Below are positions 6,002 to 62,468 of a stretch of DNA of 64,000 nt, one piece after another. Numbering within the stretch: position 1 is the stretch's first letter; the number at the start of each line of letters is the position of its first letter. The position numbers were made by a program, and so were the translations under genes. Origin of the DNA: Lachnospiraceae bacterium. Its GTDB lineage: Bacteria; Bacillota; Clostridia; Lachnospirales; Lachnospiraceae. The notes under the pieces were generated by a model, which was not told the origin of the DNA, made no database searches, and worked only from the letters and a program-made list of their open reading frames with translations. The stretch spans positions 1 through 64,000 of the forward strand of contig SVFQ01000007.1 of assembly GCA_015056765.1 (NCBI GenBank). The letters are read 5' to 3'.

Positions 6002-6832
6002 ATGAGGGAAAAAGTAATCGAAATCCATGATTTGACAAAGCGTTACGGTAAGCACAGAGGGGTAGAGAAGGTGTCTTTTGAGGTGGAAAAAGGTGACATC
6101 TTCGGATTTCTTGGTCCAAACGGAGCAGGAAAGTCCACCACCATCCGTTCCATGCTTGGGTTTCTTAAGTATGATGGGGATATTCGGATTCTAGGAATGG
6201 ATGCGAGAAAAGACCACGAGGAAATTCTTAGAAATATCGGGTATATGCCGTCCGAAGCCTTGTTTTATCCGTCTATGAAAGTAAAGGACGTGATTCGTTT
6301 TGCACAAGAGATGAGAGGCTTGGATTGTAGAGAAGAAGCAGAGAAACTTTGCGATAGACTGCAAGTAGATACCGGCAGGAGAATCAATGAACTGTCTCTT
6401 GGCAATCGCAAGAAGGTCAGTATCGTCTGCGCCATGCAGCATAAGCCGAAGCTTTTCATCTTCGATGAGCCTACAAGTGGCCTTGATCCCCTGATGCAGA
6501 ATACTTTCTTTGAACTGATAGAGGACTATGTGGCAGCAGGCAGTACCTGCATGCTTTCCACCCATGTGCTTTCGGAGGTGAAACGGTACTGTAAGCACGT
6601 TGCCATCATGAAGGAAGGACACTTGGTGAGCGCTGGCAGCGTGTCGGAACTGACCCACACCAGTTCTAAACGAGTTGTGGCAACCATCGATGGCGAAAGG
6701 AAGGAGTATCTGTACACCAAAGATATGAATTCTCTGATACGGGAACTTAGCGAAAAGAATGTAACAGAGTTGAGTATCACAGATCCATCTATAGAAGATA
6801 TCTTCATGGGCTATTACGGGGAAGAAAGATAG
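6002..6832 (+). CDS. ABC-2 type exporter ATP-binding protein
   Basis: A full nucleotide-binding domain: Walker A GPNGAGKST (about residue 39), a degenerate signature LSLGNRKK (about 130), Walker B LFIFDEP (about 153) and the H-loop in LSTHVLSEV. The C-terminal tail (about 215-276) is the short extension typical of BcrA/NatA-like ATPases that power export of drugs, peptides or lipids. ATG 6002 follows AAAGGAGAG. It pairs with the permease 12 nt downstream. The substrate cannot be told from sequence; the LytTR/DUF3021 neighbours suggest a regulated defence or bacteriocin-type exporter. Confidence 0.9.
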   Translation: MREKVIEIHDLTKRYGKHRGVEKVSFEVEKGDIFGFLGPNGAGKSTTIRSMLGFLKYDGDIRILGMDARKDHEEILRNIGYMPSEALFYPSMKVKDVIRFAQEMRGLDCREEAEKLCDRLQVDTGRRINELSLGNRKKVSIVCAMQHKPKLFIFDEPTSGLDPLMQNTFFELIEDYVAAGSTCMLSTHVLSEVKRYCKHVAIMKEGHLVSAGSVSELTHTSSKRVVATIDGERKEYLYTKDMNSLIRELSEKNVTELSITDPSIEDIFMGYYGEER

Positions 6833-6843
6833 GAGGAGAGGGA

Positions 6844-7635
6844 ATGCTTACATTAATCAAACATGAATTAAAACAAACATATAAAAGTCTTTTGATTTGG
6901 AGCCTGACAGTAGGTGGCATAGGTCTTCTTTGCATTTGTCTATATGCCAGTATGACAGAAGATATGGCTGCGCTTTCCGACAGTTTTTCTAATATGGGGG
7001 CTTTCTCGGATGCCTTTGGCATGAGTACCCTGGGGATTGGCACCATTGCCGGATACTTTGCCACAGAGGTAGGAACTGTACATGGGCTGGGTAGCGCTAT
7101 GTTTGCCGCTATTTTGGCCACTACCATCTTATCCAAGGAAGAGGATGGGCATACAGGAGAATTTCTCTTTGCGCTGCCGGTATCCAGAGGAAAGGTGATT
7201 GCGGGCAAACTCTTGTCTATGATATTAGCTTTACTACTGTTTACCGCAGTTACCTTGATATGCTACTTGATCGGATTTGAGATTCTGGGAGAGGCGCCGG
7301 ATCTGGAACTCTTTTACAGGTTTATGGGAGCCCAACTTCTGATGAATCTGGAAATTATGTTGATTATTACCGCATTTTCCGCGTTTCAAAAAAGAAATCT
7401 TCTAGGGGCAGGTCTTGGTATTGCACTTCTTTTCTATGTGTTTGATTTAACCGGCAGAGTGATTCCGGATTTAAAGGATATGTTGGTAATCGGCCCCTTT
7501 AGTTTTGCCAATGCTTCCGAGATTTTCGTAGAAGCAGAGATTCCTACGGCAGCTTATCTGTGGGGCCTTGGTATTATGGCGATTGCCACAGCGCTGACCT
7601 TTTATCGATACACCTCCAAAGACCTGGCATCCTAG
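6844..7635 (+). CDS. ABC-2 type permease
   Basis: A 263-residue protein with six predicted membrane segments. The stretch ILATTILSKEEDGHTGEFLF followed by ALPVSRGKVIAGK is the signature cytoplasmic region of ABC-2 permeases. It starts 12 nt after the ATPase stop with GGAGGAGAGG upstream, so the two genes form one transporter. No terminator is obvious after it; an ill-formed CCTCCC/GGGG stem lies near 7640-7667. Confidence 0.87.
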   Translation: MLTLIKHELKQTYKSLLIWSLTVGGIGLLCICLYASMTEDMAALSDSFSNMGAFSDAFGMSTLGIGTIAGYFATEVGTVHGLGSAMFAAILATTILSKEEDGHTGEFLFALPVSRGKVIAGKLLSMILALLLFTAVTLICYLIGFEILGEAPDLELFYRFMGAQLLMNLEIMLIITAFSAFQKRNLLGAGLGIALLFYVFDLTGRVIPDLKDMLVIGPFSFANASEIFVEAEIPTAAYLWGLGIMAIATALTFYRYTSKDLAS

Positions 7636-7710
7636 TGCTGCCTCCCTTGAATAGTAGGGGCAGATATGGTAAGTTTAACGCAGTAATACGTGAACTTAAG
7701 AGGATGTTTT

Positions 7711-10104
7711 ATGATGACAATTAGAGATTTGCAGATTGGCCAAAGCGCCAGAATAGAAGAAGTGGGCGGCGAAGGAGCATTACGCCAGCACTTTTTGGAT
7801 ATGGGGGTGATTCCCGGAGCGACCGTGACCCTGGTGAAGCTTGCGCCTATGGGAGACCCTATGGAACTGCGAATCCATGGCTATGAGCTGACTTTGCGCC
7901 TTGCAGATGCAGAGAAGATTACAGCCACTCTTATAGAAAAGAAGGATGCATCAGAGTCGGATTCTTATCAGGATAAAGAACCGAAGCAGAAATCCATTAA
8001 GAATAAAGAAAAAAGGCAAGATATCGAGCATCCCGGCTTAGGCGAGGAAGGCAAATACCATGAGAAAGGCAGCGGGAATCCTTTGCCAAAGGGAGAAAAA
8101 CTGACCTTTGCGCTGGTGGGAAATCAGAACTGCGGAAAGACCACTTTGTTCAATCAGCTTACAGGCTCCAATCAGCATGTGGGAAATTTCCCGGGGGTTA
8201 CCGTAGACCGAAAAGACGGTGTCATCAAAGGCAACGACAATACCTTGATTACGGACTTGCCCGGCATCTATTCTATGTCCCCTTATTCCAGCGAGGAACT
8301 GGTCAGCAGGGACTTTGTACTAAATGAAAAGCCCAAGGCTATCATCAATATTGTAGATGCTACCAATATTGAGAGAAATCTATATCTGACCATGCAGCTT
8401 CTGGAAATGCATATGCCTATGGTAGTGGCTCTCAACATGATGGATGAGCTTAGAGGCAATGGCGGTTCAGTAGATATCAACCGCATGGAGAAAATGCTGG
8501 GGGTACCGGTTATCCCTATCTCTGCAGCGAAAAACGAAGGTATCGACGAATTAGTCAGCCACGCCATGCACATCGCTTATTACCAGGAGACTCCGGAAGT
8601 GGATGATTTCTGCGATGAAAAGGACAACGGCGGTGCTGTACATAGATGTATTCACGCCACCATTCATTTGATAGAGGATCATGCGAAAAGGGCCGACATC
8701 CCGGTGCGATTCGCGGCAAGTAAGGCAATCGAGAATGATCAGCAAATCATCGACAGATTACAGTTGGATGAAAATGAGATAGAGACCTTAGAGCACATTA
8801 CCAAGCAGATGGAGAAGGAAAGAGGCCTGGATCGAAGTGCAGCTATGGCTGACATGCGATTTGCCTTTATCGAGAAGGTCTGTCAGGAGTGCGTCACTAA
8901 GCCAAGGGAAAGCAAGGAGCATTTGAGAAGCCAGAAAATCGACCAGTGGCTGACGGGTAAATATACAGCAATCCCGATTTTTATAGCGGTGATGGCCACA
9001 GTCTTCTTCCTGACATTCAATGTGATTGGAGCTTGGCTTCAGGGCCTTTTGGAGATGGGGATAGGAGCCCTGGCAGATCTCACAGATAAAGCCCTGACTG
9101 CAGGCAATGTGAATGAAACCATACACGAACTGATCATCGGTGGCATCTTTGAGGGCGTAGGTGGTGTACTTAGCTTCCTGCCTATTATCGTCACCATGTT
9201 CTTTTTCCTGTCTATCCTGGAGGATAGCGGATATATTGCCAGAGTGGCTTTCTTTATGGACAAGCTTCTTAGAAAAATCGGTCTGTCCGGAAGAAGCATC
9301 GTACCACTGTTGATTGGATTTGGATGTACCGTTCCGGCAGTTATGTCCACCAGGACCTTGCCCAGTGACAGAGACCGCAAGATGACCATCCTTTTAACAC
9401 CATTTATGAGTTGTACGGCGAAACTGCCGATTTACACCTTCTTTGTGGCGGCCTTTTTCCCGGAAAAGGGATGGCTGGTGATTACCGGATTATACTTCCT
9501 GGGTATCGTACTAGGCGTACTGGCAGCGTTATGCTTTAAGAAGTTCCATTTCAAGGGAGAAGCAGTACCTTTTGTCATGGAACTGCCGAACTATCGCTTC
9601 CCCAGCGCCCGTAACGTCATTCAGCTTTTGTGGGAAAAAGCAAAGGATTTCCTGCAGAGAGCTTTTACCGTTATCTTCTTAGCTACCGTTATTGTATGGG
9701 TGCTCCAGAGCTTTGACTTACATTTGAATCTGGTCAGTGACCAAAAGGACAGCATACTAGCTACGATTTCCGGCTTTTTGGTACCAATCTTTAAGCCTGT
9801 AGGATTAGGAGATTGGCGCATCTGTACATCCCTGATTTCCGGCTTTATGGCCAAGGAGAGCGTGGTATCTGTCCTGGAAGTACTGTTCGGCACTACGGGA
9901 GTTACCGCGGCTATGTCTACTTTGACAGCAGCGTGCCTATTGGTGTTCTCCTTACTTTACACACCATGTGTGGCAGCTATCGCTTCCATCAAGAGGGAGA
10001 TGGGCGGCAAATGGGCTATCTGCGTGGTTCTTTGGCAGTGTGTAGTAGCCTGGATTTGTGCACTACTGGTACACGCTATCGGCGTATTGATTGGACTGGG
10101 CTAA
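7711..10104 (+). CDS. feoB: Ferrous iron transporter, FeoA-FeoB fusion
   Basis: Residues 1-75 are a FeoA SH3-like domain (IRDLQIGQSARIEEVGGEGA and MGVIPGATVTLV). A charged linker of about 55 residues follows, then the FeoB G domain (LVGNQNCGKTTLFNQLTG, about 133; DLPGIYS; NMMDE), a helical insertion domain and a polytopic permease ending in a last segment (WICALLVHAIGVLIGLG). It imports Fe(II) across the cytoplasmic membrane. The fusion makes a separate feoA unnecessary. ATG 7711 is chosen for AAGAGG 7 nt upstream; the frame also opens with GTG at 7690. No clear Fur palindrome was found in front. The next gene starts 22 nt after the stop. Confidence 0.94.
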   Translation: MMTIRDLQIGQSARIEEVGGEGALRQHFLDMGVIPGATVTLVKLAPMGDPMELRIHGYELTLRLADAEKITATLIEKKDASESDSYQDKEPKQKSIKNKEKRQDIEHPGLGEEGKYHEKGSGNPLPKGEKLTFALVGNQNCGKTTLFNQLTGSNQHVGNFPGVTVDRKDGVIKGNDNTLITDLPGIYSMSPYSSEELVSRDFVLNEKPKAIINIVDATNIERNLYLTMQLLEMHMPMVVALNMMDELRGNGGSVDINRMEKMLGVPVIPISAAKNEGIDELVSHAMHIAYYQETPEVDDFCDEKDNGGAVHRCIHATIHLIEDHAKRADIPVRFAASKAIENDQQIIDRLQLDENEIETLEHITKQMEKERGLDRSAAMADMRFAFIEKVCQECVTKPRESKEHLRSQKIDQWLTGKYTAIPIFIAVMATVFFLTFNVIGAWLQGLLEMGIGALADLTDKALTAGNVNETIHELIIGGIFEGVGGVLSFLPIIVTMFFFLSILEDSGYIARVAFFMDKLLRKIGLSGRSIVPLLIGFGCTVPAVMSTRTLPSDRDRKMTILLTPFMSCTAKLPIYTFFVAAFFPEKGWLVITGLYFLGIVLGVLAALCFKKFHFKGEAVPFVMELPNYRFPSARNVIQLLWEKAKDFLQRAFTVIFLATVIVWVLQSFDLHLNLVSDQKDSILATISGFLVPIFKPVGLGDWRICTSLISGFMAKESVVSVLEVLFGTTGVTAAMSTLTAACLLVFSLLYTPCVAAIASIKREMGGKWAICVVLWQCVVAWICALLVHAIGVLIGLG

Positions 10105-59520: not shown

Positions 59521-60333
59521 TTACAGCAAAAAGGTACGGATTTTCTGGTCTAGGATCTTAGTATTTAGGGGAATCGAGGTGGATTCAAAACTTGTGATGA
59601 GGGTCTCCCCTAAAAGGATTCCATTCACTTCGTACAGCTGTATTTTTTGAATATTCTTCTGTAGATAGGTGTCCTGATCTACCAATCCAAGATGCTCCCA
59701 ATAGAGCGTCTTTTTTGTTGTTTTATTTAGTAATGCAAAGTCGGGGTAAAGTGTCTTGCCGGAAGGTAAAGTCAGCATTGGTTCGTATTGATACGGAATT
59801 TGATAAGAGTAGAATAAATCAGCAAGAATCTTTTCGGATTTGGAACGAACTTTTTCGCCACGATTCGTGGTGTAGTTACAATCTTCCGGGTAAGGGTTTT
59901 GATTACCGGGATGCTCTTCCAGCCATTTTTGTATGAAATCTTCCTCAGAAGATACGATTGGCGTGACGAGCGACTTTTTCGCAACGGACATTTTCTCATA
60001 CACCGACGCAGGCTCAGTTTCTTCCAGTGTCTTTGACAGCCGCAACAGCGCTTTCTCCCGTCGGATGAGGACTGTCGCCATTTTCTCGTGATATTCTTGC
60101 TTTACTACGTATTGGATGGAGGGGAGATAATTCTTGTTTAAATACTGGTCTTTTTCTCCTGAACGGGTTAGATAGAATTGCGGGGAACCATGACATATGG
60201 AACCACGAATCTTACCACTAGGCAAATTTGCAGGCACCTTGTGCTTTAATTCTTTTAGTTGTTTGATATTTTTCTGTTCGCATTCTTTTACAAATGACAG
60301 TTCTTTCTTGATTTGTTTTTCTAATTCTTTCAT
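59521..60333 (-). CDS. PD-(D/E)XK-like nuclease domain protein
   Basis: A 270-residue protein with a helical N-terminal half (KQIKKELSFVKECEQKNIKQ; EKALLRLSKTLEETEP) and a C-terminal domain from about 160. The latter has SKSEKILADLFYSYQIPYQY, YPDFALL and YWEHLGLVD, which give the E, PD and WExLG elements of a restriction-endonuclease-like fold. The Lys of the motif is not clear: E is followed by HLG. Nuclease activity is inferred. The start at 60333 follows GAAAGGA on the minus strand and lies 41 bp from the tandem-repeat array upstream of it. Confidence 0.7.
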   Translation of the reverse strand: MKELEKQIKKELSFVKECEQKNIKQLKELKHKVPANLPSGKIRGSICHGSPQFYLTRSGEKDQYLNKNYLPSIQYVVKQEYHEKMATVLIRREKALLRLSKTLEETEPASVYEKMSVAKKSLVTPIVSSEEDFIQKWLEEHPGNQNPYPEDCNYTTNRGEKVRSKSEKILADLFYSYQIPYQYEPMLTLPSGKTLYPDFALLNKTTKKTLYWEHLGLVDQDTYLQKNIQKIQLYEVNGILLGETLITSFESTSIPLNTKILDQKIRTFLL

Positions 60334-60374
60334 ATAGTGTCCTTTCTTTCGTTATATTTTCTTTTTTTAAAAAT

Positions 60375-61190
60375 ACACCGTAAAGCCACAAGGAAAATTT
60401 ACGGTTGAGGGAAGATTTCACGAGTTACACCGTAAAGGAAAACCGAAGTGTTACGGTGAACCGACAGAAAATCTAAATACACCGTAAAGCTGCTGGTAAA
60501 ATTTACGGTTGAGGGAAGACTTCACAAGTTACACCGTAAAGGCAAACGGTCGGTTACGGTGAACCGACAGGAAATTAAAATACACCGTAAAGCCGCCGGA
60601 AAAATTTACGGTTGAGGGAAGATTTCACGAGTTACACCGTAAAGGCAAAACGAAATTTTACGGTGAACCGACAGGAAATTTAAATACACCGTAAATCCGC
60701 TGGAAAAATTTACGGTTGAGGGAAGATTTCACGAGTTACACCGTAAAGGCAAACGGTCGGTTACGGTGAACCGACAGGAAATTAAAATACACCGTAAAGC
60801 CGCTGACAAAATTTACGGTTGAGGGAAGATTTCACAAGTTACACCGTAAAGGCAAACGGTCGGTTACGGTGAATCGACAGGAAATTTAAATACACCGTAA
60901 AGCCGCTGACAAAATTTACGGTTGAGGGAAGATTTCACAAGTTACACCGTAAGGGCAAACCAAAGTGTTACGGTGAACCGACAGGAAATTAAAATACACC
61001 GTAAAGCCGCTGGTAAAATTTACGGTTGAGGGAAGATTTCACGAGTTACACCGTAAGGGCAAACCAAAGTGTTACGGTGAATCGACAGGAAATCAAAATA
61101 CACCGTAAAGTCGCTGGAAAAAATTACGGTTGAGAGAAGATTTCACAAGTTACACCGTAAAGGCAAACCGAAGCACTACGGTTAAATAGA
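60375..61190. repeat. Higher-order tandem hairpin array (8 units of 103-104 bp, 16 hairpins)
   Basis: Units start at 60375, 60479, 60582, 60686, 60789, 60892, 60996 and 61100. Each has ACACCGTAAA, then TTTACGGT, then ACACCGTAAAGG or GTAAGGG, then TTACGGTG, so it makes two hairpins. The ACACCGTAA sites fall 51 or 52 bp apart throughout (60375, 60427, 60479, 60531, 60582, 60634 and so on), so the 104-bp unit is a duplicated 52-bp element. Stems are constant; changes fall mainly in loops. The last unit is worn at its end. Pairs between neighbours (TTTACGGT with the next ACCGTAAA) are also possible. It lies between a leftward nuclease-like gene and rightward dgt. Confidence 0.95.
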
Positions 61191-61460
61191 AAAAACTCTC
61201 AGTCAGCGGTAATGTCGCCAGAAATAATACGGCTAGAATTCAGAAATCTAGAAAATAGATGTATAACGAATACCTACTTTACAAGGAAAGTGATAAAAAG
61301 TCAAGCCATACATAGAAGCGGCAAAGGGAAGCACCGATGGGCCACAAAGAAAAAAATTAAAAAAACAAGAAAATAAAAAAGGAAATCAAGTTTCCACGCG
61401 GAATATATTAAGTAAACGTGTCCAAACACAACAAGTCAGATTCATCTGGGAGGAGCAGAT
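61191..61460. other. Array-to-dgt spacer
   Basis: AT-rich and without a convincing gene. It contains a GGAAA/TTTCC hairpin near 61381-61396 and ends in the strong ribosome site GGGAGGAG before dgt. A short basic frame from GTG 61288 has only a poorly spaced ribosome site and is not claimed. Confidence 0.4.
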
Positions 61461-62468
61461 ATGTTAATCCGAGTAAGTCTAGAACAATATGAAAAGGAAT
61501 ACCTTAGCCCGTATGCTATGTTGAGTGCGAATTCAAAAGGCAGACTGGTTGAGGAAGAACAATGCGATATCAGACCTGTGTTCCAAAGAGACCGAGATCG
61601 TATCATCCATAGTAAGTCATTCCGTCGTCTAAAGGATAAGACACAGGTTTTTTTGAGCCCGGACGGAGATCACTATAGAACCAGATTGACACATACACTG
61701 GAGGTGTCTCAGACGGGACGTACCATTGCCAAGGCTCTTCGCCTGAATGAAGATTTGGTGGAAGCCATTGCCTTGGGACATGACCTGGGACATACGCCTT
61801 TTGGCCATGCCGGAGAAAGGGCGCTGAATAAAGTTTGTCCTTTCGGATTCGAGCATAATGTCCAGAGCGTGCGTACAGTAGATATCTTGGAAAAAGATGG
61901 CCAGGGCCTGAATCTTACCTATGAAGTACGAGACGGCATGTTAAATCATCAGACCAAATGTACACCCGCCACGTTAGAAGGCAAGGTAGTGCGATTTGCT
62001 GATAAAATAGCATACATTCATCATGATATGGATGATGCGCTGCGAGCCGGCATTCTGACAGAGGAGGATGTGCCGAAGGAAATCGCAGATGTCATCGGAC
62101 ATAGCTGTACCGATAGAATGGATTCCTTCATTCACAATATCGTATTCACATCCCAGGGGAAAAACGACATTCTCATGAGCGAGGATGTGGATAAAGCATT
62201 CAAAGCAATGCGCCAATTCATGTTTGAACGAGTATATACCAACCCGGTGGCCAAAGCTGAAGAGGGGAAAGCTGAGACACTGGTAGAAATCCTCTATGAT
62301 TATTACTTACATCATAAGGACAAGTTGCCGGAGGATTGCCTCGCGCTTCTTGATAAAGGCGAGGAAGTAGAACGGGTGGTATGTGATCATATCAGCGGCA
62401 TGACAGATAGATATGCAGTAGCCAAATTTGAGGAAATCTACATTCCTATTGGCTGGAACAAATTGTAA
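61461..62468 (+). CDS. dgt: Deoxyguanosinetriphosphate triphosphohydrolase-like protein
   Basis: The 335-residue HD-domain protein has the sequence HSKSFRRLKDKTQVF, TRLTHTLEVSQTGR, and the HD motif GHDLGHTPFGHAGE. Further along it has DKIAYIHHDMDDALRAG. It removes triphosphate from dNTPs. It lies 16 nt before dnaG, an arrangement common in Clostridia, possibly linking dNTP control to primer synthesis. ATG 61461 follows GGGAGGAG. Confidence 0.92.
   Translation: MLIRVSLEQYEKEYLSPYAMLSANSKGRLVEEEQCDIRPVFQRDRDRIIHSKSFRRLKDKTQVFLSPDGDHYRTRLTHTLEVSQTGRTIAKALRLNEDLVEAIALGHDLGHTPFGHAGERALNKVCPFGFEHNVQSVRTVDILEKDGQGLNLTYEVRDGMLNHQTKCTPATLEGKVVRFADKIAYIHHDMDDALRAGILTEEDVPKEIADVIGHSCTDRMDSFIHNIVFTSQGKNDILMSEDVDKAFKAMRQFMFERVYTNPVAKAEEGKAETLVEILYDYYLHHKDKLPEDCLALLDKGEEVERVVCDHISGMTDRYAVAKFEEIYIPIGWNKL

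Follow-up and report, generated by a model that had tools for sequence, protein, structure and literature searches.

A helix-phased array of duplex half-sites beside the gene of a coiled-coil PD-(D/E)XK protein, a putative nuclease binding platform of Clostridia

The window, which is the whole analysed stretch of 64,000 nucleotides from a Lachnospiraceae bacterium, contains a long array of short inverted sites between the gene of a predicted nuclease and the gene dgt. The nuclease gene is divergent from the array and its first ATG lies about 41-42 bp from the array edge. An earlier sequence-only reading of this DNA had described the array and did not mention the adjacent gene. The features of the locus are as follows:

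59521-60333, minus strand: gene of a 270-aa protein with a coiled coil and a PD-(D/E)XK domain (from the ORF, an AlphaFold2 model and an alignment of 95 sequences)
60334-60374: gap of 41 bp that separates the nuclease start from the array; AAAGGA on its minus strand is a plausible ribosome-binding site
60375-61184, no strand: array of 32 alternating half-sites (16 CACCGTAA and 16 of its complement) in 104-bp higher-order units (motif scan and Tandem Repeats Finder)
60399-60435, no strand: example of a natural unit, the fixed inverted pair TTTACGGT-21 bp-CACCGTAAA (from the site list and the family-wide unit definition)
60399, 60451, 60503, 60554, 60606, 60658, 60710, 60761, 60813, 60864, 60916, 60968, 61020, 61072, 61124: starts of 15 natural units
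60436-60450, no strand: example of a linker between units, 14-15 bp, the least conserved part and the "loop" of the sequence-only reading
about 61204-61234, no strand: putative eroded unit with a second arm type, AGCGGTAA...TACGGCT (read from the sequence)
61461-62468, plus strand: dgt (HD-domain dNTPase), a flanking gene probably outside the system

The array comprises 8 units of about 104 bp each at 60375-61184. Tandem Repeats Finder reported it at 60370-61173 with a period of 104 bp (7.8 copies, score 1265, 90% matches) and, as a second solution, with a period of 207 bp (3.9 copies, score 1295). Scanning for 8-mers with at most two mismatches revealed 16 forward CACCGTAA and 16 reverse TTACGGTG half-sites from 60376 to 61183, and additionally listed one overlapping match with two mismatches. 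Forward and reverse half-sites alternate strictly along the whole array, with start-to-start steps of 29 bp and 23 bp (22 bp in a few copies). With Tandem Repeats Finder and the scan of 32 half-sites in agreement, the tandem array is real. It is unlikely to be an assembly artefact of a shorter repeat, a possibility raised earlier, because the copies in the window differ among themselves and the same design is found at more than 150 other loci. The remark that base changes avoid the arms was also confirmed: between copies, the arms diverge at 0-6% of sites, the stretches formerly called spacers at 5-9% and those called loops, which hold most of the changes, at 18-21%.

The natural unit is probably not the hairpin of 13-15 nt but the other inverted pair, in which half-sites of 8-9 bp keep a spacing of about 29 bp. 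The unit was defined on 61 loci with exactly one spacing class in the range of 26-33 bp, and that class was taken as fixed. The fixed inverted-pair spacing is therefore 26-33 bp partly by construction, with a mode at 28-30 bp, while the other spacing class at the same 61 loci falls mainly at 18-25, 34-38, 40-48, 51-58 and 64 bp. About 70% of the array ends are complete in the frame of the fixed pair, and arrays without a nuclease gene (orphan arrays) in G447, a genome of another family, mostly consist of complete fixed pairs, down to a single unit (L344). For the window, comparison with these loci suggests that the natural unit is probably TTTACGGTK-21 bp-CACCGTAAA and that the former hairpin loop is the linker between units, whose family-wide counterpart varies in length by whole helical turns. 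An outward GTA core is frequent among the arms (26/58 oriented vs 10/58 flipped).

The protein encoded at 59521-60333 was modelled by AlphaFold2 with 95 homologues (pLDDT 95.8). In the model, residues 1-106 contain an antiparallel coiled-coil hairpin (segments 2-31 and 67-105) with a three-stranded beta tip (residues 41-66), and residues about 150-270 form the PD-(D/E)XK domain. VIA-align matches for residues 1-106 (prefoldin, SMC, SerRS, others) were dismissed as generic coiled coils. The structures closest to the nuclease domain are TnsA (1t0f_A; Z 8.2, rmsd 3.2, 113 residues aligned) and Bax1 (Z 8.1); the Z values are middling, and the conserved core is aligned in both matches. The features of the superfamily are confined to this domain, which has the fold and the acidic residues E167, D198 and E213. 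The classical motif lysine is absent from its usual place (E213-H214-x) and activity is a prediction only. Since R163, S164, K165, E167, E184, D198, F199, E213, H214, G216, Y223 and E250 are invariant in 95 sequences, the nuclease chemistry is probably under selection.

The protein matched no Pfam or NCBIfam family and has no sequence relative in the PDB. Its PADLOC and PHROG matches cover the nuclease domain only, which resembles the C-terminus of candidate defence proteins of about 1200 aa (PADLOC PDC-S68, best E 3e-31 among members) and also occurs in helicases. The likeness to TnsA, Bax1 and PDC-S68 concerns how the C-terminal half is folded (Z about 8; E to 3e-31 for PADLOC PDC-S68), whereas the domains there belong to transposition, repair or long helicase and defence proteins.

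Of 299 genomes sampled from the window's family, 111 (over a third) contain homologues, as do 40 of 291 from its class, where the count includes some long ORFs of the helicase type that match in their nuclease domain. Up to 9 copies occur per genome. Named matches belong to Pseudobutyrivibrio, Butyrivibrio, Lachnospira, Oribacterium, Acetatifactor and similar Lachnospiraceae of gut and rumen; Clostridia families other than that of the window also carry homologues, with the same array geometry. The gene recurs after guaA (17 loci), comEC (12) and rplM (5). Among the recurrent flanking ORF families of 200 loci, no conserved partner gene of the nuclease was detected, and the recurrent neighbours look like housekeeping or unrelated genes that mark shared insertion places. 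Homologous arrays are likewise found at guaA, comEC, rplM and other places. The location relative to dgt-dnaG, to which attention had been drawn, looks incidental: in two genomes of the same genus, dgt has neither nuclease nor array upstream, and mntP is missing there as well. Viral contigs with homologues mostly show an unrelated context or too little upstream sequence; on the faecal phage-labelled contigs MT839528.1 and MT837260.1, the homologues are 28% identical. No phased upstream array accompanies the five homologues with long ORFs that were examined (L312-L316).

The arrays accompany the gene across the 200 homologue loci of the survey. Tandem Repeats Finder detected arrays in the 1 kb upstream of 104/189 homologues and downstream of 39/195. 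A motif method, which needs no tandem similarity, found a repeated 8-mer upstream at 155/193 loci and downstream at 58/198, so that 29% of the downstream controls are positive. About 20% of the homologues showed no array by either method. The arrays lie directly upstream of the gene, with the last site at a median of 61 bp before the start codon. Their half-sites number 11 at the median and 26 at most. Their site sequences are unrelated between loci despite one common design. Contigs often end near the nuclease gene (e.g., G011:C88, G023:C4, G112:C18, G317:C41), as repeat arrays would cause, and the array counts are therefore probably underestimates. At L100, L104, L230 and L244 (also L174), array sequence flanks the nuclease gene on both sides, as if the gene were inside the array.

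Tandem arrays can arise through slippage or unequal crossing over, and local duplication is indeed evident from the higher order of 104/207 bp in the window. However, meaningless duplication by slippage does not explain the arrays at many of the 63 loci that are invisible to Tandem Repeats Finder, because there the arms are the sole repeating element and have kept a fixed spacing although all of the intervening sequence has diverged; as a full account it is scarcely credible. An example of such an arms-only array is L085, where AGATAGTA alternates at 28/25 bp over 14 sites. Across 37 arms-only arrays, the information content is 1.5-1.9 bits per position within the arms and 0.3-0.7 bits outside them, in agreement with the expectation that arms are better conserved than loops in related genomes. 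At the guaA loci L033, L036, L037, L040 and L041, arms of the GGATGCA type are kept at orthologous downstream positions in several species, and almost all sequence between them has diverged.

The periods of the arrays cluster at 42, 52.5, 63, 73.5, 84 and 94.5 bp, i.e., at multiples of 10.5 bp; the periods observed by Tandem Repeats Finder are 41-42, 51-54, 61-66, 70-75, 83 and 94 bp, with few in between. At 10.5 bp, the Rayleigh statistic of the upstream tandem periods is R=0.78 (phase 0.09 bp), compared with R=0.17 for the downstream control. In the arms-only arrays, the spectrum of same-orientation distances also peaks at 10.5 bp (phase -0.04 bp). With one value per protein cluster, R is 0.74 at 45% identity (n=33, p=1.3e-8) and 0.76 for n=60 (p 1e-15). 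This clustered phasing persists when the dominant 5-turn class is dropped and fades at very coarse clustering (n=6). On the protein tree, at least 29 changes of turn class are counted, often between sisters. Single-turn jumps inside one array are clear in L082, L204 and L318, among other cases; pooled within-array jumps give a weak signal (R=0.24, p=0.015). The sequence-only reading had remarked on a spacing near five turns in the window, and the other genomes confirm helical phasing far beyond chance.

It had also considered the array as a precursor of structured RNAs. Partner arms show 37/494 matched changes, compared with 26 expected from random pairing, and this lack of compensatory change indicates half-sites in duplex DNA and not RNA hairpins. 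Judged from these substitutions, each arm is constrained on its own, like a protein half-site and unlike an RNA stem. Folding of the window units is barely better than that of shuffled sequence (z about -1.2), and no Rfam family matched the window array. A better fold than that of shuffles was obtained for some arms-only arrays (L082, z -5.7), which is expected of every perfect inverted repeat. Given the missing Rfam match, the weak folding of the window units and the lack of compensatory change, together with the quantisation at 10.5 bp, the RNA reading was rejected. For copy control, which had likewise been suggested, no support was found.

Two known kinds of system would nevertheless place an RNA here. 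In type III toxin-antitoxin systems (ToxIN, CptIN, TenpIN), tandem repeats, typically 2-3, lie directly upstream of a nuclease gene (PMC6315513), a layout shared by the window, and such systems are common in gut Clostridia. Their antitoxin is an RNA made from the tandem repeats, with a terminator ahead of the toxin gene; the 41-bp gap of the window holds no terminator. On this reading, the array would be transcribed into a repeat RNA that binds and restrains the nuclease. This is very improbable: the toxin there is an endoribonuclease of the ToxN fold, whereas the protein here has no Pfam match and a modelled PD-(D/E)XK fold; about 11 half-sites stand against the 2-3 repeats; the sites are phased on DNA without RNA covariation, with weak folding of the window units; and dispersed orphan arrays lie far from any toxin gene.

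The alternating repeats beside a nuclease gene are also reminiscent of guide-RNA arrays of the CRISPR or TIGR kind. In TIGR-Tas systems, alternating short repeats of 8-12 nt with 9-nt spacers lie beside a protein with a coiled coil (PMC12045711), and the coiled-coil segment of TasH is among the weak structural matches of the protein studied here. But neither a Nop domain nor a Cas protein was detected and variable 9-nt spacers are absent. CRISPR arrays combine identical repeats with unrelated spacers, whereas the linkers inside one array here are related copies and not independent spacers, so that a guide function has next to no probability.

The sequence-only interpretation as a whole is partly supported. 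Its idea of a landing array, on which a DNA-binding protein meets every site on the same helix face, has strong support, and the likely protein is the adjacent nuclease. Arm similarity between loci correlates with nuclease identity at r=0.20 (null sd 0.02) and loop similarity at 0.03; an arm-protein correlation of about 0.2 is modest, and the control for relatedness is partial. With the nuclease domain taken into account, the partial correlation with the arms is z=5.8 for the beta tip, 3.3 for the coil, 2.2 for the helix and 1.7 for the linker. Furthermore, two nucleases in the window's genome have different arms (ACCGTAA vs GACACGC), which argues against one shared host regulator. The second of them is a paralogue at L029 (gene 6744-7709, array 6457-6886; G000 C27:20.4-21.7k, G000 being the window's genome) with its own GACACGC/GCGTGTC array. 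The open frame of L029 extends into its array, and a 32-bp repeat (7768-7932) follows the gene.

The array is quite likely bound by the nuclease. The more specific reading, in which it is a cognate, helix-phased platform of double-stranded DNA that binds the adjacent nuclease as a dimer, is given a probability of roughly two in three. A symmetric dimer would contact one half-site with each of its beta tips, over a distance of about 100 angstroms, and neighbouring dimers would align on one DNA face and cooperate. The coil arms in the model measure about 58 angstroms (39-residue helix), and a dimer of such arms could span the 29 bp (about 97 angstroms) between half-sites; the absence of a correlation between coiled-coil length and half-site spacing among homologues counts against this arm-span reading.

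The arrays are not restricted to nuclease genes. In the 509 kb examined of the window's genome, at least 7 further arrays with a period of 52-53 bp were found, one with its own nuclease and the rest without. Orphan arrays with the window's own arms are located at C27:26.9k and C27:78.1k, and the eroded unit at about 61204-61234 resembles the orphan array at G000 C27:28.4k. Different arm types adjoin at C13:85.8-86.6k and C27:8.9-9.7k. At both places (L031 8700-9593 on G000 C13 and L248 8885-9730 on G000 C27), an ACACGCA-type array stands beside a CATGCA-type array, and the C13 place also holds a lone ACACCGTAA unit. These positions suggest that particular intergenic spots collect arrays. In G447, 40 cognate pairs compared with 1 in a reversed-pattern control were found at about 10 loci, with a nuclease at only one of them. 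A comparison of an orphan array with its empty site found no clear orthologue of the flanking gene in the same-genus genomes. As far as sequence can tell, a phased array of duplex half-sites is tied in position and sequence to a conserved nuclease family and has dispersed cognate arrays.

Dispersed, intergenic arrays could also serve as chromosome tethers or partition-like sites, at which the protein binds and clusters them as ParB does on parS. The parS site of the F plasmid (sopC) consists of evenly spaced tandem units, each with an inverted repeat read by dimeric ParB (PMC6238139), an anatomy similar to the regular array here, and coiled-coil arms could bridge between sites. However, no ParA/ParB gene is present among the Pfam-scanned neighbours of the window array, and the protein is a predicted nuclease with an invariant nuclease site. 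Moreover, paralogues and loci have different site sequences, and the periods fall into several whole-turn classes. In its patchy distribution among species (40/291) and its multiple copies of differing specificity, the family is unlike a core organiser, which makes a tether improbable.

The position directly upstream of the gene suggests a simpler function, in which the array is only a large cooperative autoregulatory operator, the nuclease acts elsewhere (e.g., in repair or defence) and orphan arrays are remnants of lost copies. The occurrence of the nuclease domain in candidate defence proteins (PDC-S68) and helicases fits with this, and the recurrence of the positions after guaA, comEC and rplM in many genomes suggests long vertical residence. 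On the other hand, an operator would need far fewer half-sites than the median of 11 and the maximum of 26, orphan arrays outnumber nuclease-linked ones by about 9 to 1 in G447, and in L100, L104 and L244 the same array is found downstream of the gene too. An operator alone is a serious but unlikely explanation.

With the array read as a binding platform of the nuclease, its role may be ranked as follows: a self-propagating repeat comes first, though tentatively, followed by autoregulation, which is rather doubtful, and by chromosome tethering as the least probable. The self-propagating repeat is favoured because of the dispersal, the paralogue-specific arms and their rapid change; propagation as the reason why the arrays exist still has somewhat less than an even chance. 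With less certainty than for the dimer model itself, the nucleoprotein row would act in cis to hold and regulate the nuclease gene, and the nuclease would on rare occasions act on the DNA of arrays, allowing them to expand, homogenise and seed new orphan copies. Gene and arrays would thereby persist as a dispersed repeat system. Against this explanation stands the danger of an active, unrestrained nuclease whose target arrays are numerous on the chromosome.

Such a system would resemble REP-RAYT in its logic, but with duplex DNA. In REPtrons (REP/REPIN with RAYT), the gene is bordered by short inverted repeats specific to it, paralogues have different repeats, and orphan copies are scattered between genes; the whole may be a selfish element that was domesticated (PMC3733652). 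Both kinds of system have cognate repeats at other places in the genome. RAYTs are HUH tyrosine (Y1) transposases that use GTAG-tagged hairpins of single-stranded DNA, whereas here a coiled coil is joined to a PD-(D/E)XK domain (AlphaFold) with no Pfam transposase match, and the long, whole-turn-phased arrays of duplex half-sites show no compensatory changes; the GTA core common in the arms is located within the duplex half-site. Each of the known systems considered lacks a match on some defining feature. It is conceivable, though not favoured by the odds, that a Clostridia-wide system exists in which coiled-coil PD-(D/E)XK nucleases, each with its own fast-changing half-site, assemble on one DNA face and spread whole-turn-tuned arrays through the genome as a duplex-DNA analogue of REP-RAYT.

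No prior description of the nuclease-array pair was found in open-licence PMC papers, and a multi-copy family with invariant nuclease residues, present in over a third of the sampled family genomes, has no name. With periods that jump among whole-turn values from 42 to 94.5 bp and at least 29 changes on the tree, the arrays document helical phasing clearly in a natural setting. In addition, more than 150 protein-site pairs are available, from which a recognition code could be read.

Finally, two loci stand out by their array structure. Upstream of the homologue at L028, the usual design is absent and an 18-copy repeat of 14 bp, TTGGAATTTGCCTG, is located at 2457-2713. The array of L324 (G561 C1:67.1-71.0k) is very tight at 31/11 bp (4 turns), one of the shortest periods in the survey.
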